A stretch of DNA of 58,829 nt from a virus, in the IMG/VR virus record IMGVR_UViG_3300037247_000927, positions 1-58,829 of that record. One strand, written 5' to 3'. Positions 4,141 through 24,660 of the stretch are shown piece after piece. The notes under the pieces are model-generated. The model was given only the letters and a program-made list of their open reading frames with translations, searched no databases and was not told the DNA's origin. How positions within the stretch are numbered: the stretch's first letter is position 1; every line of letters begins with the position of its first letter. A program made the position numbers and the translations under genes.

Positions 4141-4691
4141 CAGGTTTTCTCCAGCAAAGCGCCATCAGCGCCTTCAACAGTTAACCCCATGAAATTTCCA
4201 CTCATAATTTGTTTAATCATCTTGTCAATATCTGGCCCTTGAAGCGTGGTAAGTAACCATCCGCCATCAGGTAGAGGATAGTGATAAGTATCATCTACGC
4301 CATACCCAAACGATGTGGATACATAATCCATGCGCATATATACAGACGACTTGCAAGAGAACTGTGAGTGAGGTATTCCAGCATGATCTGCTGCACGCGC
4401 AAGCTCTTCACAAGGGTTGTAATCAACGTCAAGCCAGGGGTTTAGATATTCTGCACCATCACGCATGCTCTTGATCCTTTCCGAGAGCAGCTTCCTGAAA
4501 ACTTCAATCCGATCATTGATATTGTTAATATCTGATTTATCTCTCAATATCCTCGTCATCGCAAGCGCATGACTCATGCCGCCATGAACTGAATCATCAC
4601 CGTTGTCAAAAACAGGTTCGAGTAATTTCCTACACCAAAGCTCTACTGCCCGATCTATAATTAAATCTGGTATTCGCTCTCGTTTAATCAT
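4140..4691 (-). CDS. Hypothetical protein, 183 aa
   Basis: I do not recognise the family. The N-terminal two thirds appear helical, with a charged stretch near residues 60-85; the C-terminal third (from about residue 115) looks beta-rich with many Tyr and Gly. There is no membrane segment. The ATG overlaps the stop of the UvrD-like helicase gene (ATGA), so expression is coupled to the helicase. Confidence 0.7.
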   Translation of the reverse strand: MIKRERIPDLIIDRAVELWCRKLLEPVFDNGDDSVHGGMSHALAMTRILRDKSDINNINDRIEVFRKLLSERIKSMRDGAEYLNPWLDVDYNPCEELARAADHAGIPHSQFSCKSSVYMRMDYVSTSFGYGVDDTYHYPLPDGGWLLTTLQGPDIDKMIKQIMSGNFMGLTVEGADGALLEKT

Positions 4692-6139
4692 GTTTTTTCC
4701 AAATAGTTCAGAGTTTTCTTGGCTCTGGTGATGGCAACGTAATCAATATTGCGTTCTTCTTGCTCACGCCATGAAGCGCCTTTCTTGGAAGACTTATGCC
4801 AAGGTTTGTTTTCCATAATGAAAACATTGTCAGCCTCAAGCCCTTTGGCTCTGTGGACTGTAGACAAGTTGACGAAATCCTGACGGGCCTCACCAAACAT
4901 ACCTTCAATTTCATTGATGATCTTGTTGACGCTCTCGCCCGGCATTTCTTTCAGGAAAACCCTGATCGTGTTGGCTTTATCGCGTACATGGTCAGCACTT
5001 CTGTATTCATCCCTGTTGATGTGATGAAGGACTCTTTTCTCTTCCCATTTACCAAGCTTCTTTTCAAGCTGGTTGGCGTTGTCGGCCTCGAAGCCCCTGA
5101 TTAACTTAACCAGACCTTCGCCAATATTCCTGCCAACAATCGTTGCTGGAATCTTCATTCTTATGAGCCTGTAAGCCATCCCCAACAAAGGTGCGTTCGC
5201 CCTGGATAAAATCATATCGTTGGGGGCAAAGGTTTTCTCTGTGATGTTCTTGATGTAATTGATTTCACCTTCAATTGCCCAGGGTGCAGCTTCTATTTCA
5301 GGAACAATCACCTTTGCTCTTTCAACAATTTTCTTGGGGCAACGATATGAGATTGAAAGCGGAAGCATGTCACAGTCGAACATGTATCCGAGCTTTGACA
5401 TTGAAGCGCTTGAGGCCCCTCTCCAGCCGTAGATGGCTTGTTTTGAGTCACCCACACAGACCAAGCGGCCATTGTCAACCAGAACACGGTTCAGAAGCTC
5501 ATGCTGTGATGCGTTTAAATCCTGTGCTTCATCAACAAATATAAAATCATGTTGCGGAAACCTCATTTCATTCATCAATGGCAGGTAGATCATGTCATCG
5601 AAGTCAATCATCTTGGATTTGCTCAGTGACATTTCCAGCATCAATATGGCCAGCTCGATAAGCCTTCCGTCTTCCATGACATCTGGGGATATTTCATAAC
5701 GCTTGATCAGGTTAATAAATTCAATCGTGGGAGAGTCGGGACCAAGTAAATGAGACTTTGCAATCTGCACCAACTGCCTGATTTGCGCCTTGTCTTTGTA
5801 CTCAGCCCAGGAAATTTTACCTTCTTCTTTTGCCTGGCTGAGTAGAATTCTTTGCTTGCTGCTTTCTGTATGGAAAGGACCGCCACTCAGCAGCGCACGA
5901 TAGCCAAGGCTATGCATAGTCCGGCTCTCAAACATTGGTGGCAACCTTGCTCCAAGCTCAGTAGCAATTGACTTGTTGAAGGCAAGGAACAAAGGCCTGT
6001 GAGCTATCCCGTCGAGCCTGTTTGCAGCCTCTACAATGGACACGGTTTTTCCTGAGCCAGCCACGCTTTCAACAACTGCACTGTTTTCAGAATTTTGAAC
6101 GAAATCAAACAGATCATTTTGATATTTTGAATATTCCAT
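4688..6139 (-). CDS. UvrD/Rep-type superfamily 1 DNA helicase
   Basis: All core SF1A motifs are visible in the 483-residue product: Walker A VAGSGKT (about residues 26-32), Walker B VDEAQDLNASQ (about 200-210), motif III GDSKQAIYGWRGA, motif IV YRCP, motif V LSTVHRAKGLEADNVFI and motif VI DYVAITRAKKTL near the C-terminus. It is shorter than bacterial UvrD (about 720 residues), lacking most of the 1B/2B insertions, as is usual for phage versions. It would unwind DNA 3' to 5' in replication or recombination, next to a Cas4-like nuclease and an SSB-like protein. The start is preceded by the GGATAAGAGG leader at 6146-6155. Confidence 0.92.
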   Translation of the reverse strand: MEYSKYQNDLFDFVQNSENSAVVESVAGSGKTVSIVEAANRLDGIAHRPLFLAFNKSIATELGARLPPMFESRTMHSLGYRALLSGGPFHTESSKQRILLSQAKEEGKISWAEYKDKAQIRQLVQIAKSHLLGPDSPTIEFINLIKRYEISPDVMEDGRLIELAILMLEMSLSKSKMIDFDDMIYLPLMNEMRFPQHDFIFVDEAQDLNASQHELLNRVLVDNGRLVCVGDSKQAIYGWRGASSASMSKLGYMFDCDMLPLSISYRCPKKIVERAKVIVPEIEAAPWAIEGEINYIKNITEKTFAPNDMILSRANAPLLGMAYRLIRMKIPATIVGRNIGEGLVKLIRGFEADNANQLEKKLGKWEEKRVLHHINRDEYRSADHVRDKANTIRVFLKEMPGESVNKIINEIEGMFGEARQDFVNLSTVHRAKGLEADNVFIMENKPWHKSSKKGASWREQEERNIDYVAITRAKKTLNYLEKT

Positions 6140-6145: not shown

Positions 6146-6155
6146 CCTCTTATCC
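6146..6155 (-). promoter_or_regulatory. Conserved leader/RBS motif GGATAAGAGG
   Basis: Read leftward, GGATAAGAGG lies six bases before the ATG of the UvrD-like helicase. The AAGAGG part acts as the Shine-Dalgarno element; the GGAT extension is conserved beyond what ribosome binding needs. Exact copies also occur at 22103-22112, 22617-22626, 24389-24398 and 24651-24660, each just upstream of a leftward gene. Confidence 0.7.
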
Positions 6156-6174: not shown

Positions 6175-6717
6175 TCATGGTAACGTGACTCCCATTTCTG
6201 TAGCCGCCCATGCAGCAGTGCGATGTATTAAAGACTGGTACTCTTCCACATTCAGTTTCGATGTATCACCCGTATAGCGATAAATCCTGAAGTTCTTTCC
6301 ATTTGCATCTGTCTTCTTGCCGAACGCACGGTCAACAAGCGTGCTGATAATCGTAATGCAGTCAGCCCTTTCTTCTTTTGGCATTGTCGTTCTGGAGTGC
6401 TTGAGAAGCTTTTGTAGCGCCTCTCTTATGGAGTCAAGCTCACTGCTATTATGCTCTGAGTGTACGGGTAGCCACTCTTCATGCTCACCAAAGTATTCGA
6501 TCTTGGCCAGATGTCTTATCTGGTGGAAATCTATACCAGTGCTGTTGGCTATGAACCTGAGCATGCCATGCCAGTGGTTTTCCATTTCGCGTGTGCGGTT
6601 GATTTTGAATGGACTGAACTCGAACATCCATTGCTTGAGAGGATCAAGGTCCTTCAGGAAAGCAATGGCCGTGTCGATGTGATCCTGGCAGCTTGAGAAT
6701 ATTTTTTTAGTTGCCAT
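6175..6717 (-). CDS. NinB-like recombination protein (putative)
   Basis: The 180-residue product has the layout of the NinB family: an N-terminal region ending in a basic element (FKINRTREMENHWHG), a central helical region, and a C-terminal segment with TSKLNVEEYQSLIHR followed by WAATEMGVTLP, matching the family's typical close. Lambda NinB binds single-stranded DNA and aids recombination, which fits the neighbouring helicase and nuclease. Similarity is at pattern level only. It overlaps the upstream gene by 11 bases; both genes begin with MATKKI. Confidence 0.5.
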   Translation of the reverse strand: MATKKIFSSCQDHIDTAIAFLKDLDPLKQWMFEFSPFKINRTREMENHWHGMLRFIANSTGIDFHQIRHLAKIEYFGEHEEWLPVHSEHNSSELDSIREALQKLLKHSRTTMPKEERADCITIISTLVDRAFGKKTDANGKNFRIYRYTGDTSKLNVEEYQSLIHRTAAWAATEMGVTLP

Positions 6718-7153
6718 TACTCATACCTTCAAGCAGAGATAGAACTTCAGACATGGAACAACAAATATGATCAAACATTTTCACCATTAATTCTGGTTCG
6801 CCGTTCTCTAGTAAAAGTATTGTGGTTTTGCACTGTCCTGCCGCCCAACCCATTTCCATGCTGGCTGACCTTCCAAATGGCTGAACACCAACAAACACAT
6901 CTGCCCATAACATTGCGGAATAATCATGTTTATAACCTTGCATTGCAATAGGATGATCAAGACATTCCCGATAGCGCTCAATGCTCCATTCCTGCCATGC
7001 TGGATCAATATCCGACCAGTGAAAGCCGCTGTTGCCAGGCGCTGGATTGCGGAAGTCATATACTTCATGTCCCGCATTTCTCAGCTTACTAACTACTGAT
7101 GGCTGAATACTATTCCGCCAACTGGTAGCTACATATATTTTCTTAGTTGCCAT
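6707..7153 (-). CDS. Nucleoside 2-deoxyribosyltransferase-like protein
   Basis: The 148-residue product begins with KKIYVATSWRN and carries GHEVYDFRNP, then MLWADVFVGVQPFGRSASMEMGW and AAGQCKTTILL. This is the Rossmann-like fold of deoxyribosyltransferase relatives, with the conserved Glu in SxSMEMGW as likely nucleophile. Such phage proteins may take part in nucleotide salvage or modification, though some relatives have lost activity. GGGATAAGTC precedes the ATG and contains the stop of the upstream gene (GGA TAA), a partial match to the leader motif found elsewhere. Confidence 0.75.
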   Translation of the reverse strand: MATKKIYVATSWRNSIQPSVVSKLRNAGHEVYDFRNPAPGNSGFHWSDIDPAWQEWSIERYRECLDHPIAMQGYKHDYSAMLWADVFVGVQPFGRSASMEMGWAAGQCKTTILLLENGEPELMVKMFDHICCSMSEVLSLLEGMSNGN

Positions 7154-7156
7154 GAC

Positions 7157-7492
7157 TTATCCCTTCCACGTTGGAATTGAAACTTTCTCACTCCACCATG
7201 CAGCAACCAAGTCCCAATCCTCATCATGTTTGGCGGTTCCGACAATGGAAAATGGATTGTCCGGCCCATCATCTTCAACAGTCAGCTTCATGAGGATCAC
7301 ATAATCACCATATGCATAGATCATCCCGCCACAATCATCCATTTCACTGTCGCCCATTATCACAACCCAATAGTGGCCGTTTTCTGTTGGTGGCGAGTCT
7401 TCTACATTAATCCATTCGCCCGCACCTTTTCTCATCACCAGTCCCTTCAACCAATTGAGTATGGATTTAATTCTTGGTAAATGATTATTCAT
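7157..7492 (-). CDS. DUF551-like protein, 111 aa
   Basis: The C-terminal part begins EWINVEDSPPTENGHYWVV and ends with a WDLVAAWWSEK segment, the pattern of the small DUF551 phage family (WISVEDRLP at one end, a Trp-rich close). I place the start at ATG 7492 because GGATAAGAGAGCA, a near copy of the repeated leader motif, precedes it directly. The open frame extends further to a TTG at 7630 but without a ribosome-binding site. Function of the family is unknown. Confidence 0.65.
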   Translation of the reverse strand: MNNHLPRIKSILNWLKGLVMRKGAGEWINVEDSPPTENGHYWVVIMGDSEMDDCGGMIYAYGDYVILMKLTVEDDGPDNPFSIVGTAKHDEDWDLVAAWWSEKVSIPTWKG

Positions 7493-7495
7493 TGC

Positions 7496-7505
7496 TCTCT
7501 TATCC
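7496..7505 (-). promoter_or_regulatory. Near copy of leader motif (GGATAAGAGA)
   Basis: Nine of ten bases match GGATAAGAGG, and it ends three bases before the ATG at 7492, closer than at the exact copies. It supports that start codon over the longer frame. Confidence 0.5.
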
Positions 7506-7626
7506 ATACGGTGTAATAATGTTTGAGTACAGTCTACTCTCTCAAATGATAATTGCAAGGGGTTTCGTGCAAAAAGTTGTTTTCTTAATGCGGCTATGCG
7601 ACTTGAAGAAATATTATGTTTCGAAC

Positions 7627-7800
7627 TCAAGCGCTGCGAGGCATGCCCAGGTACACAGGAACACTCTTTATATCGGGCCTGTCATTAAAGGACAGCAGTA
7701 TCTTCGAGAGAATTTGAGCCTGAGATTCGAGAAGCTGACGAATGGCAAGCTCAAGACACATACATTTATTCACCAAAAAGATTGACATCTGAATATTCAT
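7627..7800 (-). CDS. Doubtful 57-aa reading frame
   Basis: An open frame from about 7863 contains an ATG at 7800 and ends at 7627, giving a hydrophobic N-terminus (MNIQMSIFLVNKCM) and a helical middle (LELAIRQLLESQAQILSKIL). There is no ribosome-binding site before the ATG, and the frame lies antisense to the promoter of the proposed small RNA. The composition is protein-like, but I cannot tell whether it is translated. Confidence 0.25.
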   Translation of the reverse strand: MNIQMSIFLVNKCMCLELAIRQLLESQAQILSKILLSFNDRPDIKSVPVYLGMPRSA

Positions 7801-7810
7801 CAGCGAGAAT
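7782..7810 (+). promoter_or_regulatory. Sigma70-type promoter for the proposed small RNA
   Basis: A perfect -35 hexamer TTGACA at 7782-7787 is followed, after exactly 17 bases, by GAGAAT at 7805-7810, which matches four of six bases of the -10 consensus including the key A2 and T6. Transcription would start near 7817 and meet a strong terminator about 115 bases later. Confidence 0.6.
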
Positions 7811-7814
7811 GCGC

Positions 7815-7935
7815 TTGTGCTGAAGTCCTGCCGGATGGATACACAGTTGATGGATGTCCGCAAAGCCTCTTATCCGAGTTCAGTTTGCATTCGTCAACGA
7901 AGAAGGCCCTTGAGAAATCAGGGGCTTTTCTTTTG
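7815..7935 (+). ncRNA. Putative phage small RNA with anti-leader sequence
   Basis: The stretch between a TTGACA-17-GAGAAT promoter and a clear Rho-independent terminator is about 115-120 bases and holds no plausible gene on the + strand. It contains CCTCTTATCC at 7866-7875, the exact reverse complement of the GGATAAGAGG leader found before at least five leftward genes. Possible folds are an outer pairing CTGAA/TTCAG, a small hairpin TTCG-TCAA-CGAA and the terminator stem. A GGATA at about 7842-7846 could partly mask the anti-leader site. By position it would act in trans on ribosome-binding regions of leftward phage mRNAs. All of this is inferred from sequence; no expression evidence is available. 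Confidence 0.45.
7905..7934 (+). terminator. Rho-independent terminator
   Basis: GGCCCTTGA (7905-7913) pairs along its full length, with two G-U wobbles, to TCAGGGGCT (7918-7926) around a GAAA tetraloop. TTTCTTTT follows at once. The T-run shows that it works in the + direction. Confidence 0.8.
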
Positions 7936-8060
7936 CCTGCAACTTTATTTCAAAATCATTTGACAAGCGATTCTGTTTTGTGCAAGACTGCAATTCGGGT
8001 TGCTGCTTATCCGTTACAACCGTTCGGCGGCAACACAACATTAATGAACTCGGATGCGTT

Positions 8061-8348
8061 ATGAAGAATCTCAAAATCATACCCTCCTTCCCACCTACGG
8101 CTGGGCTACGTTCGTTATTGTTAACCGACAAGCCGTATGAAGGGTTTCTTGCACAGCGGCAGTCCAAGAGCGATCTCGCACTATCAGAACTCCCAGAAGG
8201 CATACAAATGCATCTGGCTGCTCTCTGGTGTCTGATTTTCGGCAGCGATGCAAGACGGTCTTTACGGATCGAATGCCGACAACCCACAAGCGTAAACGAT
8301 GTGAGTCCTATGTATGGCGAAGGGTTCGAGAGCAAGCTAGCTTTCTAA
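8061..8348 (+). CDS. Doubtful 95-aa reading frame
   Basis: An ATG at 8061 opens a 95-codon frame with a helical segment (PEGIQMHLAALWCLIFGSDA). No ribosome-binding site precedes it, no family is recognised, and an overlapping frame exists on the other strand. It is listed because otherwise this region holds nothing; it may well be noise. Confidence 0.25.
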   Translation: MKNLKIIPSFPPTAGLRSLLLTDKPYEGFLAQRQSKSDLALSELPEGIQMHLAALWCLIFGSDARRSLRIECRQPTSVNDVSPMYGEGFESKLAF

Positions 8349-8360
8349 TTTTCTGTACTT

Positions 8361-8502
8361 CAGGTAATAGCTAGGACTTCTGATTGTCAGGAGCTTAGGT
8401 GAACTTTGCCTGATGACTCTGCTATTCAAGAGCAACCCTCTCTGGACCGCAGGGACTATAAAGGTAATATAGATATATAACTATATAATATATAAGGTAA
8501 TA
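8361..8502 (+). repeat. Three AGGTAATA direct repeats
   Basis: AGGTAATA occurs at 8361-8368, 8462-8469 and 8495-8502 in the otherwise gene-free region before the rightward replication operon. Spacing is irregular. They could be binding sites for a regulator, or chance in an AT-rich stretch. Confidence 0.35.
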
Positions 8503-8517
8503 GTATGAAATACTATT
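8499..8517. promoter_or_regulatory. Inverted repeat, possible operator or leader hairpin
   Basis: AATAGTAT and ATACTATT form an exact 8-base inverted repeat around GAA, 25 bases before the start codon of the DHH phosphoesterase gene and just downstream of TATAAT at 8484-8489. It could be an operator overlapping the transcription start, or an RNA hairpin ahead of the ribosome-binding site CAGGAGAA. Confidence 0.5.
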
Positions 8518-8542
8518 TGCAAATTTTCATCAGGAGAATCAA

Positions 8543-9409
8543 ATGAAAAGACTCTGTATTTATCATGGTAATTGTGCTGATGGGTTTGCTGCTGCATACG
8601 CAATGCAGGTTGCATTTGATCCAAGCACTATTGAATTTCATGCTGGCGTTTACGGAGACGAACCACCAGATGTAACTAACCGCCATGTTTACCTTGTAGA
8701 TTTCTCTTACAAGCGTGATGTGCTAATTGAAATGGCAGCGAAGGCTGTGAGTATTTTGATTCTTGATCATCACCAAAGCGCTGAGGCTGAGCTTGTCGAT
8801 TTGCCAGGTAACGTCGAAACAGTATTTGATATGACCCGGAGTGGCGCAGTAATAACTTGGGATTATTTTCTGCCTGCCTTAAAAATACCGCCATTGTTTT
8901 TCCACATAATGGACCGTGACTTGTGGAGATTTAAGCTTCCGGCCACGCGAGAAATAATGGCATGTCTCAGCTCGTACCCTTATGACTTTGATGTTTGGTC
9001 CGACCTTATGGATTTCGATATGGAGTTTTTGCGTAGAGGTGGCGAATCAATCAATCGTAAGCAACTAAAAGATATTAACGAATTGATCGAGGCAAATGCG
9101 CACCGCATAGTCATTGCAGGCCATGACGTTCCCGGCCTGAACGGGCCTTACATGTGGGCTTCAGACGCTTGTCATATCATGGCCAAGGGTGAGCCGTTTG
9201 CTGCATGCTATTGCGATACAGGGGAGGGCAGAGTATTCCAGCTCCGTTCTGCTGATGGTGGCATGAATGTGGCTGAGATTGCAAAACTCTTTGGTGGTGG
9301 CGGCCATGAACATGCTGCTGGCTTCAGTGTGCCGCACCATACAGGTCTTATTTTTATTGAACCACCGATTGAATCAACAGAAATATTAGGAGAAACAAAT
9401 GTCACATAA
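8543..9409 (+). CDS. DHH-family phosphoesterase (RecJ/NrnA-like)
   Basis: The 288-residue product shows the DHH phosphoesterase signature: HGNCADG (about residues 8-14), VDFSY (about 52-56), ILDHH (about 73-77) and, near the C-terminus, the DHHA1 substrate motif FGGGGHEHAAGF. Metal-dependent enzymes of this class degrade single-stranded DNA 5' to 3' (RecJ) or short oligonucleotides (NrnA). The length is closer to NrnA-type enzymes. It is the first gene of the rightward replication block, with a good ribosome-binding site (CAGGAGAATCAAATG), and overlaps the following RecF/Rad50-like gene by 11 bases, suggesting a joint role in DNA-end processing. Confidence 0.88.
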   Translation: MKRLCIYHGNCADGFAAAYAMQVAFDPSTIEFHAGVYGDEPPDVTNRHVYLVDFSYKRDVLIEMAAKAVSILILDHHQSAEAELVDLPGNVETVFDMTRSGAVITWDYFLPALKIPPLFFHIMDRDLWRFKLPATREIMACLSSYPYDFDVWSDLMDFDMEFLRRGGESINRKQLKDINELIEANAHRIVIAGHDVPGLNGPYMWASDACHIMAKGEPFAACYCDTGEGRVFQLRSADGGMNVAEIAKLFGGGGHEHAAGFSVPHHTGLIFIEPPIESTEILGETNVT

Positions 9410-10820
9410 AATCATTAAACTTACAGCCGAGAACATCAAGAAGCTCAGGGCTGTTGAGATCACGCCAGATGGCGATGTCGTTAAAATATCAGGTGCAAAT
9501 TCTGCTGGCAAAACCAGTGTACTTGATTCAATTTTGTTCGCGCTTGCAGGCAAAAATGCCATACCTGATAAACCCATTCGTGAGGGCGAGGATTCCGCGT
9601 TTGTTGAATTGAACCTGGGTGATCTGATCGTCAAGCGCCGGTTCACTCCTGGCGGCTCTACGTTATCAGTTGAGAATGCTGAGGGTGCGGTCTTCAAATC
9701 ACCACAATCCATGCTCGATGACATGATGGGTAAGCTCTCATTTGATCCTATGAAGTTTTTACAGCTCAGCAGGAAAGAACAGTTCGATGAGTTGTTGACC
9801 CTGGTTGATGTCAAGATTGATTTGTCTGAGCTGGATGAAAAGCGGCAGTCTCTTTATGAAGAACGCACTATTGTTAACCGTGAAGGCAAGGCAGTAAAGA
9901 CGCGACTGGAAGCGATACCAAAGATCGAGAATGCTCCCGATGCTGATATTGATATCGTTGTGCTGGCTGAAGAGATATCACAGGCCGAAGCTGGAAACCG
10001 CGAGCTTGATAATGTGCTGGTTAAGATTGGAGGCGATAAAGTCTCAAAGCAGCGCTTTAGTGGTGAGCTTGACGTTTTTCGTCGTGGTATAGATTCTCTT
10101 GAAGAAGAAACAAAAGACAAAGAAAAAATTGACATTGAGAAAATGCGGACAGAGCTTAATGAAACAGTTGCCAAGTTAACTCAGCAGATATCTGAGGCTG
10201 AAAACAGCAACAACGAGCTACAAACCAATCTTTCTAGTCTTGATAGCAGAAAAGCAGCGGCCTTGGACCTTGAGGTTCGAATCAATGCGCTGGACCAAAG
10301 GATTAACCAGTTCGAAAAAGAGACTGGTAGCAAGGAAAAGGTTGATACCACTGAGCTGGTAATAAAGCTCAATAATGCAAACAAAATCAATAATGATTAT
10401 CGTGCAAGCCAAGAGCGTATCGCTATTGTAGACGCTGTGAAGGTGAAGATTGTCGAAAGCAATAACCTGACCAGCGAGATTGAAAAGATCGACGAGAAGA
10501 AGAGTGAGGCCCTTTCAGTGGTTAAGTTCCCTGTTGATGGTCTGAGCCTGGGTGATGGTGAAATTACTTACAATGATATCCCGCTTGATCAGGCCTCAAT
10601 GTCAGAGCAGATGCGTGTTTCAATCGGGATTGCGATGGCTGCAAATCCAGATATCCGCGTAATCCGGATCACTGATGCCAGCCTGTTTGATTCATCGACT
10701 ATGAAGATGGTTGAAGAAATGGCAAAAACTGATGACTACCAGATATGGATGGAGATCGTCGATGAATCTGGCAAGGTTGGTATTTACATTGAAGACGGCT
10801 CAGTTTCAAAGGTGAACTGA
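9399..10820 (+). CDS. RecF/Rad50/SMC-like ABC ATPase
   Basis: The 473-residue product has an N-terminal ABC ATPase half with Walker A ANSAGKTS (about residues 33-40) preceded by the basic element typical of RecF, then a long charged coiled-coil region (about 150-360). A C-terminal half follows with a signature-like SMSEQMRVSIGIAMAANPDI and a Walker-B-like hydrophobic strand ending RITDASLFD. That strand has Asp at the end but lacks the usual adjacent Glu. Such proteins tether and process DNA ends. Overlap with a DHH phosphoesterase gene suggests that the pair works together, much as Rad50 works with Mre11. AGGAGAAACAAATG marks the start. Confidence 0.82.
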   Translation: MSHKIIKLTAENIKKLRAVEITPDGDVVKISGANSAGKTSVLDSILFALAGKNAIPDKPIREGEDSAFVELNLGDLIVKRRFTPGGSTLSVENAEGAVFKSPQSMLDDMMGKLSFDPMKFLQLSRKEQFDELLTLVDVKIDLSELDEKRQSLYEERTIVNREGKAVKTRLEAIPKIENAPDADIDIVVLAEEISQAEAGNRELDNVLVKIGGDKVSKQRFSGELDVFRRGIDSLEEETKDKEKIDIEKMRTELNETVAKLTQQISEAENSNNELQTNLSSLDSRKAAALDLEVRINALDQRINQFEKETGSKEKVDTTELVIKLNNANKINNDYRASQERIAIVDAVKVKIVESNNLTSEIEKIDEKKSEALSVVKFPVDGLSLGDGEITYNDIPLDQASMSEQMRVSIGIAMAANPDIRVIRITDASLFDSSTMKMVEEMAKTDDYQIWMEIVDESGKVGIYIEDGSVSKVN

Positions 10821-10821
10821 C

Positions 10822-11142
10822 ATGGGCGTGTATACAGTGGTTGGTTCGGGTGATTTAATTGACTTTGAAGACCGTGTGAATGCCGCGCTTAATTATGGTT
10901 ATATTCTTCATGGTGGGATGGTGGTTGAGCAAGTCACCAAATGGGTGGAAGGAATGGATGGCAATGAGCAGGAGTTAGGTAGTTATTACCTGCAAGCCAT
11001 GTACAAACCTCCCACAACAGATGAGAAAAACTCAATCATTATGCATGCCAAGGAATTTGCGCTCTCATTATGGGCAGATGAAAACGATGCATTTGAGCCT
11101 GCATGGAAACAAGCAGTAGAAATCGCGGAACCTCAAGGGTGA
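10822..11142 (+). CDS. DUF1737-like protein, 106 aa
   Basis: The N-terminal half (YTVVGSGDLIDFEDRVNAAL, then GYILHGGMVV and SYYLQAMYKP) matches the pattern of the small DUF1737 domain: a strand, a helix ending in Asn, a Gly-Trp/Tyr turn and a closing strand with QAM. The C-terminal 40 residues are helical and acidic. Its function is unknown in all settings I know. It begins two bases after the stop of the ATPase gene. Confidence 0.65.
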   Translation: MGVYTVVGSGDLIDFEDRVNAALNYGYILHGGMVVEQVTKWVEGMDGNEQELGSYYLQAMYKPPTTDEKNSIIMHAKEFALSLWADENDAFEPAWKQAVEIAEPQG

Positions 11143-11148
11143 ATTGAT

Positions 11149-11373
11149 ATGGATAGAAATCAACATTTAAAATGGTGCAAAGATCGTGCGCTGGAATATG
11201 TAATTGTAGGCGACAATGAGCAAGCAATAGCATCAATGGCAAGCGATCTTGGTAAGCATCCAGATATATTGTCAGCGGTGGAAATATGCTTAGGTTTTGG
11301 TATGGAATTGTTGACTTCCGGAAAGCTAAACAGTACAGAAAAGATGCGTATTTTTATTAATGGGTTTAATTGA
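11149..11373 (+). CDS. Hypothetical protein, 74 aa
   Basis: A small, mainly helical protein with no recognised domain or membrane segment. The ribosome-binding site is weak (GGGTGAATTGAT). It ends one base before the start of the TOPRIM-domain gene, so the genes are coupled. Confidence 0.6.
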   Translation: MDRNQHLKWCKDRALEYVIVGDNEQAIASMASDLGKHPDILSAVEICLGFGMELLTSGKLNSTEKMRIFINGFN

Positions 11374-11374
11374 T

Positions 11375-12319
11375 ATGAAAATTGCATACATAGAAAAAAG
11401 CTTTCGGCCAGGGACGATGCAGATGATTGATAAAGCCAATATCATCATCAGAGAATTTTCTCGCATGGGTTTATATCTCACGCTCAGGCAGCTTTACTAC
11501 CAGTTTGTTAGCCGTGGCATGTTTCCTGAAGACAGACGATGGGCATGGACAGGCTCAAAATGGGTTCGTGACCCTGAAGGAACGAAGAACGCGCCACCAA
11601 ACTATAAGTGGCTTGGAACCATTATTCGTGATGCGCGGCTGGCTGGTCTGATCGACTGGAAAGCCATTGAGGACCGGACAAGAAAGCCTGTCATCCGGGA
11701 TCACACGGAATCCGCTGAAGAAGCTGTAAAGGGTCTTGAAAATAAAGTAGATAAAGATCGTTGGGCCGACCAGGATGTGGCGGTGGAAGTATGGATTGAA
11801 AAGGATGCTTTGACCGGCGTAATCCGTAAGCCCTGTGGGCGTTGGGATGTACCGTATTTTGCATGTAAAGGGTATAACAGTTCATCAGCGGCATGGCTGG
11901 CAGGACAGCGCGTCTTGCAGCGTGACAAACCAACTGTGATTCTGCACTTGGGCGACCATGACCCAAGCGGCATTGACATGACTAACGATACGATCAAACG
12001 GTTTGATATGTTCACTGGCGGAAAGGCTTCGGTGGATAGGATTGCGCTTAACATGGATCAGATTGAGGAATTCGACCCGCCATCAGACCCAGCCAAGATG
12101 GGTGACAGCCGCTCACATGGATATGTAGAGCAGTTTGGGTATGAGTGTTGGGAGCTGGACGCTCTAAACCCTCAAGACATGCAATCTCTGATCGAGGGAA
12201 AGATCAAAGAATATATCGACTTCGATAAATGGGGTGCCACTGCTGAAATTGAATTTGAAGAAAACAGGGTTTTGGATGAGCTGATATTTGCTTGGCCAAG
12301 AATCCGTAACACATTGTGA
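11375..12319 (+). CDS. TOPRIM-domain protein, Spo11/TopoVI-A-like
   Basis: The 314-residue product has an N-terminal region with LTLRQLYYQFVSRG and later NYKWLGTIIRDARLAGLIDW. Next come VEVWIEKDAL, a likely TOPRIM Glu, then GYNSSSAA, and VILHLGDHDPSGIDMTND, the DxD of TOPRIM. This order is shared with archaeal TopoVI A/Spo11-like proteins and is common in phages without a B subunit nearby. The usual catalytic Tyr region may be the YYQF element, but I cannot confirm cleavage activity. I start at the ATG at 11375; one at 11360 is possible. It may act in recombination or DNA-end formation alongside the RecF-like and DHH genes. Confidence 0.75.
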   Translation: MKIAYIEKSFRPGTMQMIDKANIIIREFSRMGLYLTLRQLYYQFVSRGMFPEDRRWAWTGSKWVRDPEGTKNAPPNYKWLGTIIRDARLAGLIDWKAIEDRTRKPVIRDHTESAEEAVKGLENKVDKDRWADQDVAVEVWIEKDALTGVIRKPCGRWDVPYFACKGYNSSSAAWLAGQRVLQRDKPTVILHLGDHDPSGIDMTNDTIKRFDMFTGGKASVDRIALNMDQIEEFDPPSDPAKMGDSRSHGYVEQFGYECWELDALNPQDMQSLIEGKIKEYIDFDKWGATAEIEFEENRVLDELIFAWPRIRNTL

Positions 12320-12330
12320 GTTGAAACATA

Positions 12331-12600
12331 ATGGAATTTGAACATGGCAGGTACATTGGGACGATTCAGTTAAGAGAAACGCATAAAGGCTTGCCGCTTA
12401 AACCAAAAGTTAAAGATGTGCTGGACGGGAAAACAATGGAGTTCACTTATTGTTGGACCTGTGAACCAGACGAAAAATATGCGGGAGAATGTGCTATGGA
12501 ACCAAGCGTATGCAATAAAGATGACTCCGACAGAGAGCTATTCCGCGAGGCTGATATTTTGTGGATTGCAAGCGGTGATGTTAAATGGGCGGGGGAATGA
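12331..12600 (+). CDS. Hypothetical protein, 89 aa
   Basis: A small soluble protein with four Cys residues (YCWTCEPDE, GECAMEPSVCNK) that might bind a metal ion. No recognised family. It sits between the TOPRIM gene and a second small Cys-rich gene in the rightward operon. Confidence 0.6.
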   Translation: MEFEHGRYIGTIQLRETHKGLPLKPKVKDVLDGKTMEFTYCWTCEPDEKYAGECAMEPSVCNKDDSDRELFREADILWIASGDVKWAGE

Positions 12601-12601
12601 G

Positions 12602-12784
12602 ATGGATTTTATGAGTGGTAATTGGCCGCCAAATTGCGCTGTTTGTGGAAGATTCCATGACCCTTCAGATGAGGGCGCTATCTCGGAAACCATCTATACA
12701 GGCGGACCAATACCAGAGCCAGATCACGAAGAGTTTGTTTGTGCTGACTGTGCCGTTAAAGAAAATGCAAAAACAGAAGGATGA
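12602..12784 (+). CDS. Small zinc-finger-like protein, 60 aa
   Basis: Two CxxC pairs (NCAVCGRFH and VCADCAVK) about 35 residues apart make a likely zinc ribbon. The ATG at 12602 follows the previous stop by one base, with GGGGGAATGAG as a ribosome-binding site. Role unknown; small zinc-ribbon proteins often accompany replication genes in phages. Confidence 0.6.
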   Translation: MDFMSGNWPPNCAVCGRFHDPSDEGAISETIYTGGPIPEPDHEEFVCADCAVKENAKTEG

Positions 12785-13019
12785 CATTCGCCGGTATAGC
12801 TGCCTTGGAATCGCTAATGCCAGGGTGATGATGTTCAGCGATCCGGATAAACGTAGGCTTTTCCGCAAGCAAGTCAGATACATTAATTGGTTCGTAAAGA
12901 AGGAATTAAGACGGCAAGTAGCGATTCATATTTCTACATGTTACGCGCTAAAAAACGGTTGGTCATACGCAAAGTACCAGAAAGCACTGATCATCTGGAA
13001 CAATCACATTCAGGAGTAG
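12765..13019 (+). CDS. Small basic protein, 84 aa
   Basis: Starting at the ATG at 12765, 20 bases inside the preceding gene, the product is strongly basic (KRRLFRKQVRYINWFVKKELRRQ) and helical, suggesting nucleic-acid binding. The frame is open further upstream, but that region would fully overlap the zinc-finger gene. No family recognised. Confidence 0.55.
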   Translation: MQKQKDDIRRYSCLGIANARVMMFSDPDKRRLFRKQVRYINWFVKKELRRQVAIHISTCYALKNGWSYAKYQKALIIWNNHIQE

Positions 13020-13023
13020 AACA

Positions 13024-13440
13024 ATGACGATCAAACATACGATTACTTCACTCATGTCTCTGGATCAGGCTGAAAAAATCAGCATATCAAAAGACGATGA
13101 ACTTGAATTGTTGCGAGATTTTTGGGTATATGTCAGCACTCATGACAGGCAGTACGTTCTTGCAATAGTCGATAGTGGTGATGCAGCAAAAAGAATTATA
13201 GATTATCTTAATGAAAAGTGCGGTAAATCATTCAGGCCGGTGGCTGCGAACATGAAAATGATCAAGGCACGTCTCAAGGAGTTTAGTGAGGATGATCTGC
13301 TGAAAATGATCACTCATAAATGCAATGAATGGATGTTCACTGACATGGAAAAATATCTCAGGCCAGCGACTCTTTTTAATGCGACAAAGGCCGCGCAGTA
13401 TGTGGGCGAAATTGAGGATGATAGTGCTACTGGCTTCTAA
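13024..13440 (+). CDS. Hypothetical protein, 138 aa, replication-operon member
   Basis: A helical, mixed-charge protein. Its C-terminal part (KSFRPVAANMKMIKARLKEF, then YLRPATLFNATKAAQYVGE) resembles the conserved C-terminal domain of phage replication proteins such as DnaT- or O-like proteins, in which an RPxTLF element precedes a helix. A strong ribosome-binding site (CAGGAGTAGAACAATG) precedes it and it lies directly before the primase-helicase. A helper or loader role for that enzyme is plausible, not shown. Confidence 0.6.
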   Translation: MTIKHTITSLMSLDQAEKISISKDDELELLRDFWVYVSTHDRQYVLAIVDSGDAAKRIIDYLNEKCGKSFRPVAANMKMIKARLKEFSEDDLLKMITHKCNEWMFTDMEKYLRPATLFNATKAAQYVGEIEDDSATGF

Positions 13441-13460
13441 AACAAAAACGGATAACAATA

Positions 13461-15275
13461 ATGAAGAACTTGACTGCGGCGGATATCGCCAAGGCGCTTG
13501 CTGAGAACGTAGAAACTGTTTGTAGATACTTACTCCCAAATGGTGTCCTGAAGGCCGGTGAATGGTGCGCGGGCGACCCTCATGGCTCAGCAGGAAATAG
13601 CTGTAAGGTCAGAGTAAGTGGATCGAAAGCCGGGGTATGGTCTGACTTCAATGGTGGACAGAGCGGTGACTTACTTGATCTTTGGTCGGCCAATAAGAAC
13701 ATAAGCATTGCTGAAGCCATGAAAGAAGCCAAGGCATACTTGGGTATTTCCGAACCTGAAACTTTTCATACCAAACCCAAGCTACAGTTTGCAAAACCAA
13801 AGAAACCAAAGAGTCTTGCAAAGCTGGGTTCAGTTTTATCCGACTGGTTTGCAAAGCGAAAGATAACACCTGAAACCCTGAAGATTTATCGTGTCGCTGA
13901 AGCTGGTGGTGCAATAGTTTATCAACACATCATAGATAATAAGCTTGTCAGCATCAGATACCGTAAGCTTCCAAAAGATTTCAGCAACTCAACCAACACA
14001 GCTCATACGTTGTGGGGGTGGCACACGCTCTCTGAGAGGTCTAGGAGTGTTGTAATCTGTGAGGGTTATGAGGATGCTATGTCATGGAGGGAATACGGCA
14101 TTGAGGCGCTCTCTGTACCGTTTGGTGCTGGTACTGGTAACAAGCACCAGTGGATTGATCACGACTATGAACGGCTACAGCAGTTTGATCGTATTTATAT
14201 CAGCATGGATATGGACGAAGCTGGCCTTGGGTGTGTTGAAGAGATAGCCACGCGCCTTGGGAATTACCGATGCTTTGTTGTTGAACTGCCAAAGAAAGAC
14301 TGCAATGACTGTTTGATTGCTGGTATTGCTAAAGATGTTATTGCGGATACGATTAAAAACGCCAAAGCTATTGACCCAAAGCATTTACGAAGAGCTGATT
14401 CATATCTTGATCAGACGATCAGATTATTTTTTCCGACCAGTGATTATGAGGCTGGATTTTCTCTACCCTGGTCGCATTCTGGCAACTTGATATTCAGACC
14501 GGGTGAGCTGATAGTCCACACTGGATTTAACGGGTCTGGAAAGTCTCAGTGGGTGAATTATCTGGAAATACTCATGATGAATGCTGGCTACAAGTGCGCT
14601 ACTGCTTCGATGGAATTTCAACCCAAGCGACTACTGCACAGGATGGTCAAGCAAATCACCGGCATAGGTACACCAACAGAGGCCTACATTAAAGAATCAT
14701 TTCAGTGGCTTGACGGTAAGTTTTGGTTGTTTGGTGCTACCGGAAACGATAAAGCCGGAAATCTTTTAGATACAATGCTTTATGCCAGAAAGAGGTACGG
14801 CGTTGAGGTTTTTATTATTGACAGCTTCATGAAGTGCGGGATCAATGAAGAAGATTATGACGGCCAAAAGAAATTTATGGATCAGCTTTCTGATTTCAAG
14901 AATGATTTCGAGTGTCAGATACATTTGGTTGTGCATCAACGCAAGCCTGCTAATGTGAATGAAGTCAAAGCAACTCCGAGCAAGTTTGGGATCAAGGGAT
15001 CAGGTTCAATATCTGATTTGCCGGATACAATTGTTCTGATTAATCGGAATAAGAAAAAAGAGTTTCAGGTTAATAAGATTCTCAGCAACAACAGAAGTAT
15101 GACCGGCATTGATATTCCCAAGGAATTAAAGAATATGCCTGATGTTTATGTTAACTGTGACAAGCAACGCAATGGAGACTGGGAAGGCGGCTTTGGTCTG
15201 CATTTTAATACTGGGAACTATCAATACAAACAATATTACAGAGAAAAAAATAGGGATTTTCTTCAGCATGGATAA
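13461..15275 (+). CDS. Primase-helicase (T7 gp4/Twinkle-like)
   Basis: The 604-residue product joins a TOPRIM primase-type domain to a RecA-fold helicase. The N-terminal region (about 1-100) resembles the CHC2-type domain but has few Cys residues, so classic zinc binding is doubtful. The TOPRIM element VVICEGYEDAMSW is at about 195-207, with MDMDEAG near 248. The helicase half has Walker A TGFNGSGKS (about 353-361), Walker B FIIDSF (about 450) and VVHQRKP and SGSISDLPDTIVLINRNK elements typical of DnaB-like motifs. It would unwind the replication fork and may synthesise primers. It is the central replication gene, preceding a RuvC-like resolvase. Confidence 0.9.
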   Translation: MKNLTAADIAKALAENVETVCRYLLPNGVLKAGEWCAGDPHGSAGNSCKVRVSGSKAGVWSDFNGGQSGDLLDLWSANKNISIAEAMKEAKAYLGISEPETFHTKPKLQFAKPKKPKSLAKLGSVLSDWFAKRKITPETLKIYRVAEAGGAIVYQHIIDNKLVSIRYRKLPKDFSNSTNTAHTLWGWHTLSERSRSVVICEGYEDAMSWREYGIEALSVPFGAGTGNKHQWIDHDYERLQQFDRIYISMDMDEAGLGCVEEIATRLGNYRCFVVELPKKDCNDCLIAGIAKDVIADTIKNAKAIDPKHLRRADSYLDQTIRLFFPTSDYEAGFSLPWSHSGNLIFRPGELIVHTGFNGSGKSQWVNYLEILMMNAGYKCATASMEFQPKRLLHRMVKQITGIGTPTEAYIKESFQWLDGKFWLFGATGNDKAGNLLDTMLYARKRYGVEVFIIDSFMKCGINEEDYDGQKKFMDQLSDFKNDFECQIHLVVHQRKPANVNEVKATPSKFGIKGSGSISDLPDTIVLINRNKKKEFQVNKILSNNRSMTGIDIPKELKNMPDVYVNCDKQRNGDWEGGFGLHFNTGNYQYKQYYREKNRDFLQHG

Positions 15276-15290
15276 ATTAGGAGAATCATC

Positions 15291-15773
15291 ATGGAATGTG
15301 TTATAGGTATTGATCCTGGTATCAGTGGTGCTATCGCTTGTATCGGTATTAATGGAGAATTTATCTCCGTACATGACATGCCAACAGTTCCTGATGGAAA
15401 ATCAGACAAAAGGCGGGTAGCTATTTTTGGGCTCAGAAGCATTCTCGAAGACCTGAATCCAAAACACATCTACATCGAGCGTGTCAGGGGAATGAACAAG
15501 GGCGGCACAAAGCAGGGCGCTTCCAGGTCATTTAATTTTGGTATGTCGTATGGGATTGTCAGGGCTGTGGCCAAACTGAACAACCCAATGTCATATGATA
15601 TTGAAGTGCAGAGCTGGAAGAGATACTTTAAACTCTGGGGAAAGCATAAAAGGGACGGGCTTGTGCTGGCCAGGAAGATGTATCCGGAAGCTGAGTTACA
15701 TCTTATAAAACACCAGGACAGGGCAGATGCTTTATTAATTGCACGATATGGATTAGTGAAAATTCATGGTTGA
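15291..15773 (+). CDS. RuvC-like Holliday junction resolvase
   Basis: The 160-residue product has the RNase-H-fold acidic residues of RuvC relatives: Asp in GIDPGISGA (residue 8), Glu in IYIERV (about 62), and Asp residues in HQDRADALLIA near the C-terminus. Length matches bacterial RuvC (about 170). A phage version would resolve branched replication and recombination intermediates before packaging. TAGGAGAATCATC supplies the ribosome-binding site, and it overlaps the next gene by eight bases. Confidence 0.85.
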   Translation: MECVIGIDPGISGAIACIGINGEFISVHDMPTVPDGKSDKRRVAIFGLRSILEDLNPKHIYIERVRGMNKGGTKQGASRSFNFGMSYGIVRAVAKLNNPMSYDIEVQSWKRYFKLWGKHKRDGLVLARKMYPEAELHLIKHQDRADALLIARYGLVKIHG

Positions 15774-16293
15774 AGAAAAATATATTGCACCCAAAGAGGG
15801 TAGCGCTATTGGCACTTATCTTGAGACTCAAAGACATAACCGCAAGGCCTTACGCACTCATATAAAAGAGATTGATCTAAGGTCTGAGAATTACGATATT
15901 TTGTGCATGGATTATTCTGTTGAGCGTGTCTGTGAGGGAATTCTAAACGGCATAACTGCACAAGAGATCGCTGAAGACATTGGCATTCCCATTTACTTCA
16001 TGATGCGCTGGCTCAGGAGTGACCCAACACGTCATGCCTTATTCAGTTCATCATTCAAAGATTATGCGCTTGTTCTCAGGACCGACACAATTAAGGATGT
16101 TGAAGAGAGACCTGATACCACCATTGAGGCAAGCCACATGAAAACAAAGTCAACTACAAAACTCAGGGTTGCTGATTCACTTGATCCGCCAGATGTTAAG
16201 GGTGGTGGCGGTGCTTCCGTTTCAATTCACCTGGGGTTCATAACACCGGCAGAAGATGCCAAGGTTATTGAAGTAGAAGAGGTCGAGGGTTGA
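15766..16293 (+). CDS. Helix-turn-helix protein, possible small terminase subunit
   Basis: The 175-residue product contains a helix-turn-helix-like segment (about 60-85: GITAQEIAEDIGIPIYFMMR) and a region SDPTRHALFSSSFKDYALVL that resembles the N-terminal DNA-binding part of small terminase proteins, followed by an acidic tail with GGGGASVSIHLGF. A small terminase would recognise the packaging site. It is about 9.5 kb from the large terminase, which is unusual, so a transcription-regulator role is the main alternative. It is the last gene before the bidirectional terminator. Confidence 0.5.
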   Translation: MVEEKYIAPKEGSAIGTYLETQRHNRKALRTHIKEIDLRSENYDILCMDYSVERVCEGILNGITAQEIAEDIGIPIYFMMRWLRSDPTRHALFSSSFKDYALVLRTDTIKDVEERPDTTIEASHMKTKSTTKLRVADSLDPPDVKGGGGASVSIHLGFITPAEDAKVIEVEEVEG

Positions 16294-16343: not shown

Positions 16344-16377
16344 AAAAAAGGCCGGAGACTTTTGCCCCGGCCTTTTT
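16344..16377. terminator. Bidirectional Rho-independent terminator
   Basis: AAAAAGGCCGG and CCGGCCTTTTT form an 11-base-pair stem around an 11-base loop, with T-runs on both strands. It lies between the end of the rightward replication operon (16293) and the end of the leftward small-gene operon (16410). Confidence 0.9.
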
Positions 16378-19763: not shown

Positions 19764-22094
19764 CTATTCCCTGTCAATAATTACCAACTTTGATGCGGTA
19801 CCGGTCCCGCTCTGCTTGAATGAGTCTTCCGGAAGGTCGATTACTTCACCACCAACAGAATCAAACCAGTTTCTAAACTCAACTGCCTTTTTATCCTGTC
19901 TGAAAAATGGGCCGGGACTCATAATAGAAACCATCCGGCCACCTATTTTCAAGAATGAATAAGCAAGGCAAACATGCGTAATGTCTTGTAGGTTTTCAAA
20001 TGGTGGATTCATCACAATGCGGTCAAACTTAAAGCTGTTGAATTGCTCTGTGAAATCAACCGGTCTTGCGTCATAACCTTTTGCCTGGAGAATTTCACAC
20101 AATGAATGATTGATTTCATAGACCACGATCAGATTATCCATGTCCAGGGCCTCGATACCGTCAACAATTGCACCGCTTCCGGCTGAAGGTTCGAGCACGC
20201 TTTGCCCTGTTGTAATGTCGGCATAGTCAAGCATCAGATCAACAACGGGTTTTGGTGTCGGGAAGTATCCCGGTATTTTGTTGAAGCGTAGAGCCTCAGT
20301 CATTCGATCAAGATTTTCCTTGTGTTGCAGTTTTTCATCTTTGCCGGAAAGAATGTCCCACAACGCCAGGGCTTTTGGTGACGCGCTTTCGTGAGGCTTG
20401 CCGGTCCCGATTGAATATTGATGCCAGCCATTAGGGACAGATTCGAAACCTTCACCAAGCAAATCATAGACAGCCTTTTTAGACTTCAATCCGGCTAATA
20501 TTTCCGGCACTGTTCCTGCTTCGTGTAGATCGGCCAAAGCATTCAAAGCTTGTTGTGTTCTTTCCAGCTTGTCAGCTTCCGAGCGTGCGCTGGCGGCTTC
20601 TTTTTGCCGCTTTGGTGTGTTGGTCAGCCTGTCGCCTCGTTTGTTATCTATGGCGCTCTGAAGTTTGTCTGACATCTTGCGGAATCGCTCAGGTAATCCG
20701 GCTGGCGGTGTTGGTGGTGGTGGTTCATTATCAGGCGGACCCGTAAAGGATCGGGCTTGATCTTCAGATTTAAACGCAAAGCCTCCAGGAGTTTGGCCCC
20801 ACTTGCGAGAATACCAGCCGCCGTTATCTTTGGCGCGGTCTCTTTCGCTAGTGAATTCATCACGCTCCAACCTTGACAGCGGAACACATATAAAGAAGTC
20901 ATAACCGCGTTTTTCGTGGTAATGCTGCTCGATTGTGTAGCCGTGTGCGCTTGGTTTGGTGTTGGTGGTAGGTGTTGACCGTTCGACGCGCTCAGGAACG
21001 CACCAGCGGCCAACAGGGACGGACTTCGCACCGTGATACAGTTCAATTTTGTTAATTGACCAGCCGCTAGAGTCTCTGTGCCCATCTTTCAGATAATAAC
21101 CAGCACCAAAGCTGTATTTTTCGCGGTGTTCAATCTTTGATTCTTCAATCTTCCAATAAAACGGGATCAAGGTATCGTCAAACTTGATTGAGTAAGGTGC
21201 ATTTTTGCCATCAATCCATGCCTTCCCCTCGACTGGATCGGGATCACCTTTTTTATCAATCCATGCTTGTGCTTGGCCCGTCGTGGTAAAGTCTTTGCAT
21301 TCTGGTAATAAATCGGAATGCCACACTGAACCGCATCCTTTATGATAATAACTTCCATTGCTATGGAAATCTTCACCGATCATTACACGCGGAGTAAAGC
21401 AACCTTTGCCGGGTCCAAGGTGTTCCGTCTCAGGTGCATTTAATGCAGCCTTGCGCATTTCTGGGAATAGATCGCGGGTATGTGTTGACCATGCCAGAAT
21501 TAAAACTTCTTTGGTTGTGTGGCCGTGGTAATCGGTCATGATATCGGAATCATTAACATGCAATTCCGCCACAATTACAGCTTTAGCGCCTGGTGGCATT
21601 TTTTCCGTGGCCACTGCTTCAAATTCTGATCGGATTTGATCGGATTTGATACGCGCATTCTCGCGGGTTATTGCTTCCTTTTGGTGATGCTCTACCATCT
21701 GGACCACTAAAACCTTCATTTCCGCCATTGTCTTACTTGGTTTTAATTCATATTTCTGCGTCCAGGGTAAAACGATTTGTTCTGATAAATCTATAGATCG
21801 CGTGTTGTCTTCGTAAATGACATCAATGCTTTTATTGATCTTTTCCATTCCGGCACCGAGCATGTAGACATTGCCGGAAGACTCATTAACTGCGGATATC
21901 CAGCCGTTTTTATCGTACATGCTCCGGACTGGCTGACCAATATAAAAGCCTTCGCGGGTTTGTGTGTGGCTGTTCCAGTCATGCCCACATTTTGAACATT
22001 CTCTGATCAGTACCGTTTCAGGGCTAAATTGTTCATGCCCGCATTCAGGGCATTGATAAGCGTTAAAAAGTGCGTTTTGTGCTGTCTGATTCAT
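19764..22094 (-). CDS. Large DNA methyltransferase with N-terminal zinc ribbon
   Basis: The 776-residue product starts with a zinc ribbon (CPECG and CSKCG, residues 15-38). A long middle region rich in Gly, Tyr and charged residues follows, without recognised motifs. The C-terminal domain (about 590-776) is a class I methyltransferase with motif I LEPSAGSGAIVD (about 631) and NPPFEN (about 695), typical of N6-adenine enzymes. It may modify phage DNA to evade restriction. The middle region includes two KYSFGAGYYLKDGH-like and PVRSMYDKNGWISAV-like segments that could recognise a substrate. The GGATAAGAGG leader stands eight bases before the ATG. Confidence 0.8.
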   Translation of the reverse strand: MNQTAQNALFNAYQCPECGHEQFSPETVLIRECSKCGHDWNSHTQTREGFYIGQPVRSMYDKNGWISAVNESSGNVYMLGAGMEKINKSIDVIYEDNTRSIDLSEQIVLPWTQKYELKPSKTMAEMKVLVVQMVEHHQKEAITRENARIKSDQIRSEFEAVATEKMPPGAKAVIVAELHVNDSDIMTDYHGHTTKEVLILAWSTHTRDLFPEMRKAALNAPETEHLGPGKGCFTPRVMIGEDFHSNGSYYHKGCGSVWHSDLLPECKDFTTTGQAQAWIDKKGDPDPVEGKAWIDGKNAPYSIKFDDTLIPFYWKIEESKIEHREKYSFGAGYYLKDGHRDSSGWSINKIELYHGAKSVPVGRWCVPERVERSTPTTNTKPSAHGYTIEQHYHEKRGYDFFICVPLSRLERDEFTSERDRAKDNGGWYSRKWGQTPGGFAFKSEDQARSFTGPPDNEPPPPTPPAGLPERFRKMSDKLQSAIDNKRGDRLTNTPKRQKEAASARSEADKLERTQQALNALADLHEAGTVPEILAGLKSKKAVYDLLGEGFESVPNGWHQYSIGTGKPHESASPKALALWDILSGKDEKLQHKENLDRMTEALRFNKIPGYFPTPKPVVDLMLDYADITTGQSVLEPSAGSGAIVDGIEALDMDNLIVVYEINHSLCEILQAKGYDARPVDFTEQFNSFKFDRIVMNPPFENLQDITHVCLAYSFLKIGGRMVSIMSPGPFFRQDKKAVEFRNWFDSVGGEVIDLPEDSFKQSGTGTASKLVIIDRE

Positions 22095-22102: not shown

Positions 22103-22112
22103 CCTCTTATCC
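22103..22112 (-). promoter_or_regulatory. Conserved leader/RBS motif GGATAAGAGG
   Basis: Exact copy eight bases before the ATG of the methyltransferase gene. The same ten bases precede four other leftward genes. Confidence 0.7.
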
Positions 22113-22123: not shown

Positions 22124-22378
22124 TTATAATTCTTGTGCGTTGTAACGTCTAAATTCTGCACGGCTCTGCACCGTTGCCGGGTAGATAACATTCACTTTTA
22201 CAACATCGGCCCATACCTGGAGGGCGTGAGTTATTCGGCAAAATTTGAAACGTGGGTCACTTGCTCGAATTGCTTTGAGTTTGTCTTTTGTCCCTGATTC
22301 GGTGTATTCGCCTGTTTGGGTCTTCATTGCATATCGGCCCTCTACTTTTACATGATCTTTGAAGGTGTTCCGGTTCAT
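22124..22378 (-). CDS. Hypothetical protein, 84 aa
   Basis: A basic soluble protein. The first third is strand-rich (KVEGRYAMKTQTGEY) and the last part is helical. No family recognised. The ATG overlaps the upstream stop as TAATG. Confidence 0.6.
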   Translation of the reverse strand: MNRNTFKDHVKVEGRYAMKTQTGEYTESGTKDKLKAIRASDPRFKFCRITHALQVWADVVKVNVIYPATVQSRAEFRRYNAQEL

Positions 22379-22616: not shown

Positions 22617-22626
22617 CCTCTTATCC
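22617..22626 (-). promoter_or_regulatory. Conserved leader/RBS motif GGATAAGAGG
   Basis: Exact copy. Here GGA TAA is also the last Gly codon and stop of the upstream gene, and AAGAGG serves the downstream gene, so the motif joins two genes. Confidence 0.7.
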
Positions 22627-22851
22627 GTTAATATTGTCGTTTAAATTTTTTAAGCAGCCCGTTATATCGGACCTAAAACAAAAACTTGTCGAGATACTCG
22701 ATATAGGGTGGCCTTTTATGTTTATCACTGAACCGTTAATTGATTTTATTTTGTGCCAGTAGCTATAGCCATCATCATCTTCAAGATAATACTTTTTATC
22801 TTTGGTCATGATGTGGCCTTTTTCTATTAAAATATCCTTTTCTGTGTACAT
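22621..22851 (-). CDS. Hypothetical protein, 76 aa
   Basis: A small soluble protein with KKYYLEDDDGYSYWHKI in the middle and two Cys near the end. No known family. The leader unit upstream holds a hairpin and GGATGAGAGG, one base different from the conserved motif. Confidence 0.6.
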   Translation of the reverse strand: MYTEKDILIEKGHIMTKDKKYYLEDDDGYSYWHKIKSINGSVINIKGHPISSISTSFCFRSDITGCLKNLNDNING

Positions 22852-22859: not shown

Positions 22860-22923
22860 CCTCTCATCCGTTTAAACTTCCAGGCTCTAGCCGCCCTCCT
22901 AGCGGCTATGGTCTGAAAACTTT
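22860..22923 (-). promoter_or_regulatory. Leader unit: hairpin plus GGATGAGAGG
   Basis: Read leftward: AAGTTTTCAGACCA, then a stem of TAGCCGC and GCGGCTA (22888-22908), then GTTTAAAC and GGATGAGAGG. The same order with similar bases is seen at 24389-24457, so the two are copies of one leader. Confidence 0.6.
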
Positions 22924-24388: not shown

Positions 24389-24457
24389 CCTCTTATCCTT
24401 TGGTAAAAACTATCAAGCGAAAGCCACTCCTCAAGTGGCTATAGTTTGAAAGCTTGG
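24389..24457 (-). promoter_or_regulatory. Leader unit: hairpin plus GGATAAGAGG
   Basis: Read leftward: AAGCTTTCAAACT, a stem AGCCACT/AGTGGCT with loop TGAGG (24422-24440), TTTCGCTTG, AGTTTTTACCAAA, then GGATAAGAGG at 24389-24398. Layout and bases match the leader at 22860-22923. The hairpin plus T-rich stretch may act as an attenuator. Confidence 0.65.
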
Positions 24458-24650: not shown

Positions 24651-24660
24651 CCTCTTATCC
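24651..24660 (-). promoter_or_regulatory. Conserved leader/RBS motif GGATAAGAGG
   Basis: Exact copy about 25 bases downstream of the likely transcription start of the leftward operon and seven bases before its first ATG. Confidence 0.7.

Follow-up and report, generated by a model that had tools for sequence, protein, structure and literature searches.

In phages P1 and P7, the C4 antisense RNA carries complementary segments in its loops that block the ribosome-binding site of a phage mRNA (PMC12197685). According to the same review, most phage sRNAs have one phage mRNA or host RNAs as their target. Among phage RNAs that act by pairing, sar of P22 and OOP of lambda act on single phage mRNAs, PreS of lambda acts on host dnaN, and VpdS of VP882 acts on both phage and host mRNAs; for none of these four does the review describe a match to a leader common to a set of phage genes. 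Comparable RNAs are encoded by bacteria. The alpha-r14 or cuckoo RNAs of alphaproteobacteria (NfeR1) have anti-Shine-Dalgarno sequences in unpaired regions of hairpins and occlude the ribosome-binding sites of many targets (PMC10746234), and the sibling sRNAs NmsRA and NmsRB of Neisseria downregulate translation of several mRNAs through a UC-rich loop complementary to their Shine-Dalgarno regions (PMC5362039).

Here we describe a putative sRNA encoded by an uncultured phage (an IMG/VR virus record), whose 58,829 nt make up the whole stretch of DNA analysed, called the window below. By analogy, it would resemble C4 and the bacterial anti-Shine-Dalgarno RNAs in its working, and phage T4 RegA in its scope. 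Like C4, it is phage-encoded and has a loop complementary to a phage ribosome-binding site, but C4 controls the antirepressor mRNA whereas the predicted sRNA has one loop for five to seven genes from two operons. We do not assign it to the C4 family, because the region has no Rfam match at gathering score and C4 is absent from the relaxed matches in 7400-8600. The alpha-r14 RNAs are cellular and have three hairpins, each with an unpaired CCUCCUCCC (PMC10746234), whereas the predicted sRNA has one hairpin with CCUCUUAUCC, and its loop, unlike theirs, matches the leader over more than the ribosome-binding core; 7817-7936 contains neither CCUCCUCCC nor three such hairpins, so we do not place it in that family either. 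NmsRA and NmsRB are also cellular, with metabolic targets and partial complementarity, in contrast to the exact complement encoded by this phage. Like RegA, the predicted sRNA would be one phage factor acting at the initiation regions of many phage mRNAs to turn them down (PMC3014915), but RegA is a protein acting on loosely defined A+U-rich sites and the factor here would be an RNA that complements its sites exactly.

A predicted RNA between two divergent operons

The locus sits in a non-coding gap of about 1 kb that separates divergent operons, with leftward genes starting from 7492 and rightward genes from 8543. Its features are:

7782..7810, + strand: promoter match TTGACA-17-GAGAAT for the predicted sRNA, 10 of 12 consensus positions
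7817..7936, + strand: predicted sRNA of about 115-120 nt, with the start near 7817 placed from the promoter; supported by its fold z-score and lack of coding potential
7846..7857, + strand: 5' arm of a 12-pair stem in the minimum-energy fold, GUUGAUGGAUGU
7866..7875, + strand: anti-leader CCTCTTATCC (RNA: CCUCUUAUCC), exact complement of five leaders GGATAAGAGG
7887..7898, + strand: 3' arm of the 12-pair stem in the minimum-energy fold, GCAUUCGUCAAC
7902..7937, + strand: predicted strong intrinsic terminator (hairpin 7902-7929) with a GAAA loop and the T-rich tail TTTTCTTTT

The promoter and terminator are as the initial annotation had them: TTGACA begins at 7782 and GAGAAT finishes at 7810, and the hairpin described there as nine pairs with a GAAA loop and a T-run has a core of 8-9 pairs, lengthened by weaker pairs. 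Seven + strand promoter matches of at least 10/12 occur in the window, this one among them. Its -10 hexamer, GAGAAT, is poor, which counts against an sRNA. No other intergenic + strand terminator of the window has a promoter matching at 10 or more of 12 positions within 400 nt, and there is no + strand protein gene upstream of 7929 for this terminator to end. The terminator region (7900-7940) has 88% identity over 41 nt (E = 8e-5) to terminators of Stenotrophomonas phages, which stand about 20 bases behind annotated protein genes; we rejected these as homologs of the sRNA because the match covers the terminator alone. Weaker matches to the same region occur in Arthrobacter and Pseudomonas phages.

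ORFs of at least 25 codons within 7500-8540 have negative or near-zero codon-usage scores, compared to positive scores for the neighboring genes, although this score is weak for short ORFs and some accepted small genes are likewise near zero. An ORF of 78 codons does open at TTG 7863, 2 nt behind the - strand motif copy at 7866. Its coding score is negative, it has no PHROG match, and a spacing of 2 nt is too short, so the initial annotation correctly described these roughly 115 bases as lacking a good gene.

The + strand RNA of 7817-7936 has a predicted folding energy of -44.4 kcal/mol (z = -3.74; 0 of 200 shuffles were as good), whereas the opposite strand does not fold beyond its shuffles (z = +0.14). 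Much of the + strand signal comes from the terminator, since the 5' hairpin alone folds only slightly better than its shuffles (z = -1.73), and the difference between strands is partly due to the three G-U pairs in the 12-pair stem (7846-7857/7887-7898). On this stem UUAUCC (7870-7875) forms an open hexaloop with an unpaired probability of 0.99-1.0. In the free RNA, however, the anti-leader's CUC pairs for the most part with GAG, which counts against an action as an sRNA.

These folds bear on whether the 7866 copy is instead the vestigial leader of a lost leftward gene, an alternative raised in the initial annotation. The copy is exact and in leader orientation, and the TTG 7863 ORF lies just behind it. 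As that annotation remarked, there is no start codon 6-9 bases past the copy: no ATG is found there, and the nearby start is a TTG at a spacing of only 2 nt, opening an ORF with a negative coding score and no family match. The strand-specific folding, as modeled, argues for a + strand RNA over a relic leader. A relic also leaves the + strand promoter, hairpin and terminator around 7866 unexplained, and we regard it as very improbable.

Alternatively, the element could belong to the rightward operon (8543-16293) as its 5' leader, containing an attenuator or antitermination site, with the match to leftward leaders incidental or secondary. Three observations suit a leader: between 6000 and 10000, no + strand promoter match other than that at 7782 reaches 9/12; about 600 nt separate the terminator from the start of the rightward operon; and the element contains CTCTTA, which resembles the core of boxA antitermination sites. 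However, the predicted structure shows no alternative fold that pairs off the terminator, a leader peptide with coding potential is lacking, and the exact 10-base match to five leaders stays unexplained. We consider this reading unlikely.

A leader motif shared by leftward genes

The sequence GGATAAGAGG is present six times in the window, always on the - strand (at 6146, 7866, 22103, 22617, 24389 and 24651), compared to an expected 0.03 copies from shuffles. Five of the copies stand 6-8 nt upstream of the ATG of leftward genes, including those for a UvrD-like helicase and a methyltransferase-domain protein, so the original observation of an exact complement to the leaders of at least five leftward genes holds. 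The sixth copy (7866) is not followed by an ATG and is the only place in the whole window where the exact 10-mer occurs beyond true leaders. A scan allowing one mismatch added two further leftward leaders, at 7496 and 22860. The seven leaders, all on the - strand, are listed with their predicted energies of pairing to the sRNA:

6146..6155, - strand: leader GGATAAGAGG of the UvrD-like helicase gene 4688-6139; exact, 6 nt before ATG; -13.6 kcal/mol
7496..7505, - strand: near-copy GGATAAGAGA before gene 7157-7492; one mismatch, 3 nt before the ATG at 7492; -6.8 kcal/mol
22103..22112, - strand: leader of the methyltransferase-domain gene 19764-22094; exact; -11.7 kcal/mol
22617..22626, - strand: leader of gene 22378-22608; exact; -12.8 kcal/mol
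22860..22869, - strand: variant leader GGATGAGAGG of gene 22621-22851; one mismatch; -13.9 kcal/mol, the best
24389..24398, - strand: leader of the 35-codon ORF 24274-24381; exact; -9.5 kcal/mol
24651..24660, - strand: leader of gene 24458-24643, the first gene past a 12-of-12 promoter; exact; -10.2 kcal/mol

That promoter (TTGACA-16-TATAAT; 24689-24716, - strand) matches the sigma-70 consensus at all 12 positions, and we found no other such match in the window. It precedes the right-hand leftward operon, which suggests that this operon may be transcribed early by the host polymerase. Similar hairpins, AGCCGCTAGGAGGGCGGCT and AGCCACTTGAGGAGTGGCT, precede the leaders of genes 22621-22851 and 24274-24381 (22870-22930 and 24399-24440, - strand), and the AGCCACTTGAGGAGTGGCT hairpin (24399-24440) additionally scores as a weak terminator.

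The sequence GGATAAG is found upstream of 7 of 28 leftward genes but 0 of 37 rightward genes; the chance that all seven such leaders would be leftward if placed at random is C(28,7)/C(65,7), or about 0.002, in a comparison that is post hoc because it was made once the motif had been seen. Because the motif overlaps the ribosome-binding site, its conservation is in part to be expected even without an sRNA. It might simply be a favored strong ribosome-binding site, TAAGAGG being a plausible Shine-Dalgarno element, or the operator of a translational repressor protein, as in phage T4, where the RegA protein represses about 30 mRNAs at their initiation regions (PMC3014915); the complement at 7866 would then have no regulatory part. 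Ribosome binding leaves the GGA of the motif unexplained, because the 16S rRNA tail does not reach that far. A protein operator needs no complement within an RNA loop, and there is no RegA-like protein among the subset of the phage's proteins that we scanned. We therefore think it improbable that the motif is only a ribosome-binding site or an operator.

An RNA–RNA interaction prediction, which the initial annotation had proposed as a check on antisense pairing, ranked the seven motif leaders first among the 18 leftward gene starts that we compared. Their energies, which are corrected for accessibility by including the opening costs of both partners, range from -13.9 to -6.8 kcal/mol, and the next leader has -4.9 kcal/mol. 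The GGATGAGAGG leader ranks best, despite its mismatch, because G-U pairing and two flanking pairs preserve the helix.

Chance controls and proposed mode of action

The coincidence of the sRNA loop with the leaders is well beyond chance. The 120-nt element contains an 8-mer complementary to six leaders, a level reached by 0 of 1,000 dinucleotide shuffles of the element; when the match is raised to 9-mers, one shuffle in 1,000 reaches six leaders. Six leaders are also matched at the 8-mer level by two other places (around 1950-2009 and 41550-41609, - strand) among 1,785 half-overlapping 120-nt segments of the genome, which counts against the sRNA reading. We also surveyed 321 stretches ending in terminators from 88 phage contigs. 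The sRNA stretch matches five automatically called leaders, two stretches match two, and the remaining ones match one or none; a reversed control never exceeded two. The survey used ATG-only gene calls, because earlier versions took spurious TTG-start ORFs as genes and missed the sRNA site, and its final settings were picked in the knowledge that this site ought to be detectable, so its result is supportive rather than fully blind.

We propose, with a probability of roughly 0.6, that 7817-7936 (+ strand) encodes a free, trans-acting antisense sRNA masking ribosome-binding sites in a set of leftward genes. The locus has the features of the general class of phage trans-acting antisense sRNAs: promoter and terminator matches of its own (both predictions), no coding potential, and accessible complementarity to the initiation regions of mRNAs encoded elsewhere. 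The initial suggestion that one RNA acts on the shared leaders is therefore partly supported: its sequence-level case has gained strength, with a strand-specific fold, an open hexaloop, motif leaders as best targets and a match beyond chance, and we infer transcription and action in trans from the sequence.

In the mechanism that we envisage, the open hexaloop UUAUCC would seed on GGAUAA, on the upstream side of the Shine-Dalgarno element in leftward phage mRNAs. Pairing would then zipper from UUAUCC through CCUC onto GAGG, covering the ribosome-binding site, and translation of the leftward set, including the UvrD-like helicase and the methyltransferase-domain protein, would fall. Repression rather than activation is expected from the position of the pairing. 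Being read rightward between the divergent operons, the sRNA could lower the expression of leftward genes at a particular point in infection, although the timing of its action is speculation. More tentatively, and at somewhat below even odds, the phage may have standardized one ribosome-binding leader across a whole set of genes, allowing a single sRNA loop to switch all of them, as an RNA regulon switch reminiscent of RegA. With a single loop matched to a leader common to the genes of two operons, a phage would have a compact means of timing its own genes, and loop and leader should be exchangeable in matched pairs.

Distant relatives and other features of the phage

We found no close relatives of the phage and no homolog of the sRNA in the collections searched, from which records very near the window may be absent. 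Protein searches of viral contigs (with the helicase, DHH protein, portal, primase and ATPase, and a terminase alignment) and of genome contigs (with the helicase) gave distant relatives or none. The terminase relatives have at most about 37% identity. Helicase relatives have 37-38% identity, with about 37% to Nipunavirus-like Pseudomonas phages such as PaMx25 and NP1. Exact DNA patterns of the loop and of the stem plus loop hit 25 and 47 stretches in viral contigs, all of them, judging by their contexts, seemingly by chance and with the hairpin absent. Rfam has no family at gathering score for the sRNA region, and we rejected its weak matches to ctRNA_p42d and BjrC68, which are below threshold and rest mainly on the terminator. 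Relatives of the DHH protein have up to 49% identity, the value in Vibrio anguillarum phages, where the gene order differs.

Elsewhere in the genome, a strong two-way terminator (16349-16377) lies between the convergent rightward (to 16293) and leftward operons. The adjacent genes 6175-6717 and 6707-7153 have near-identical stretches of 32 nt at their starts (6699-6730 and 7135-7166), giving the protein starts MATKKIF and MATKKIY.
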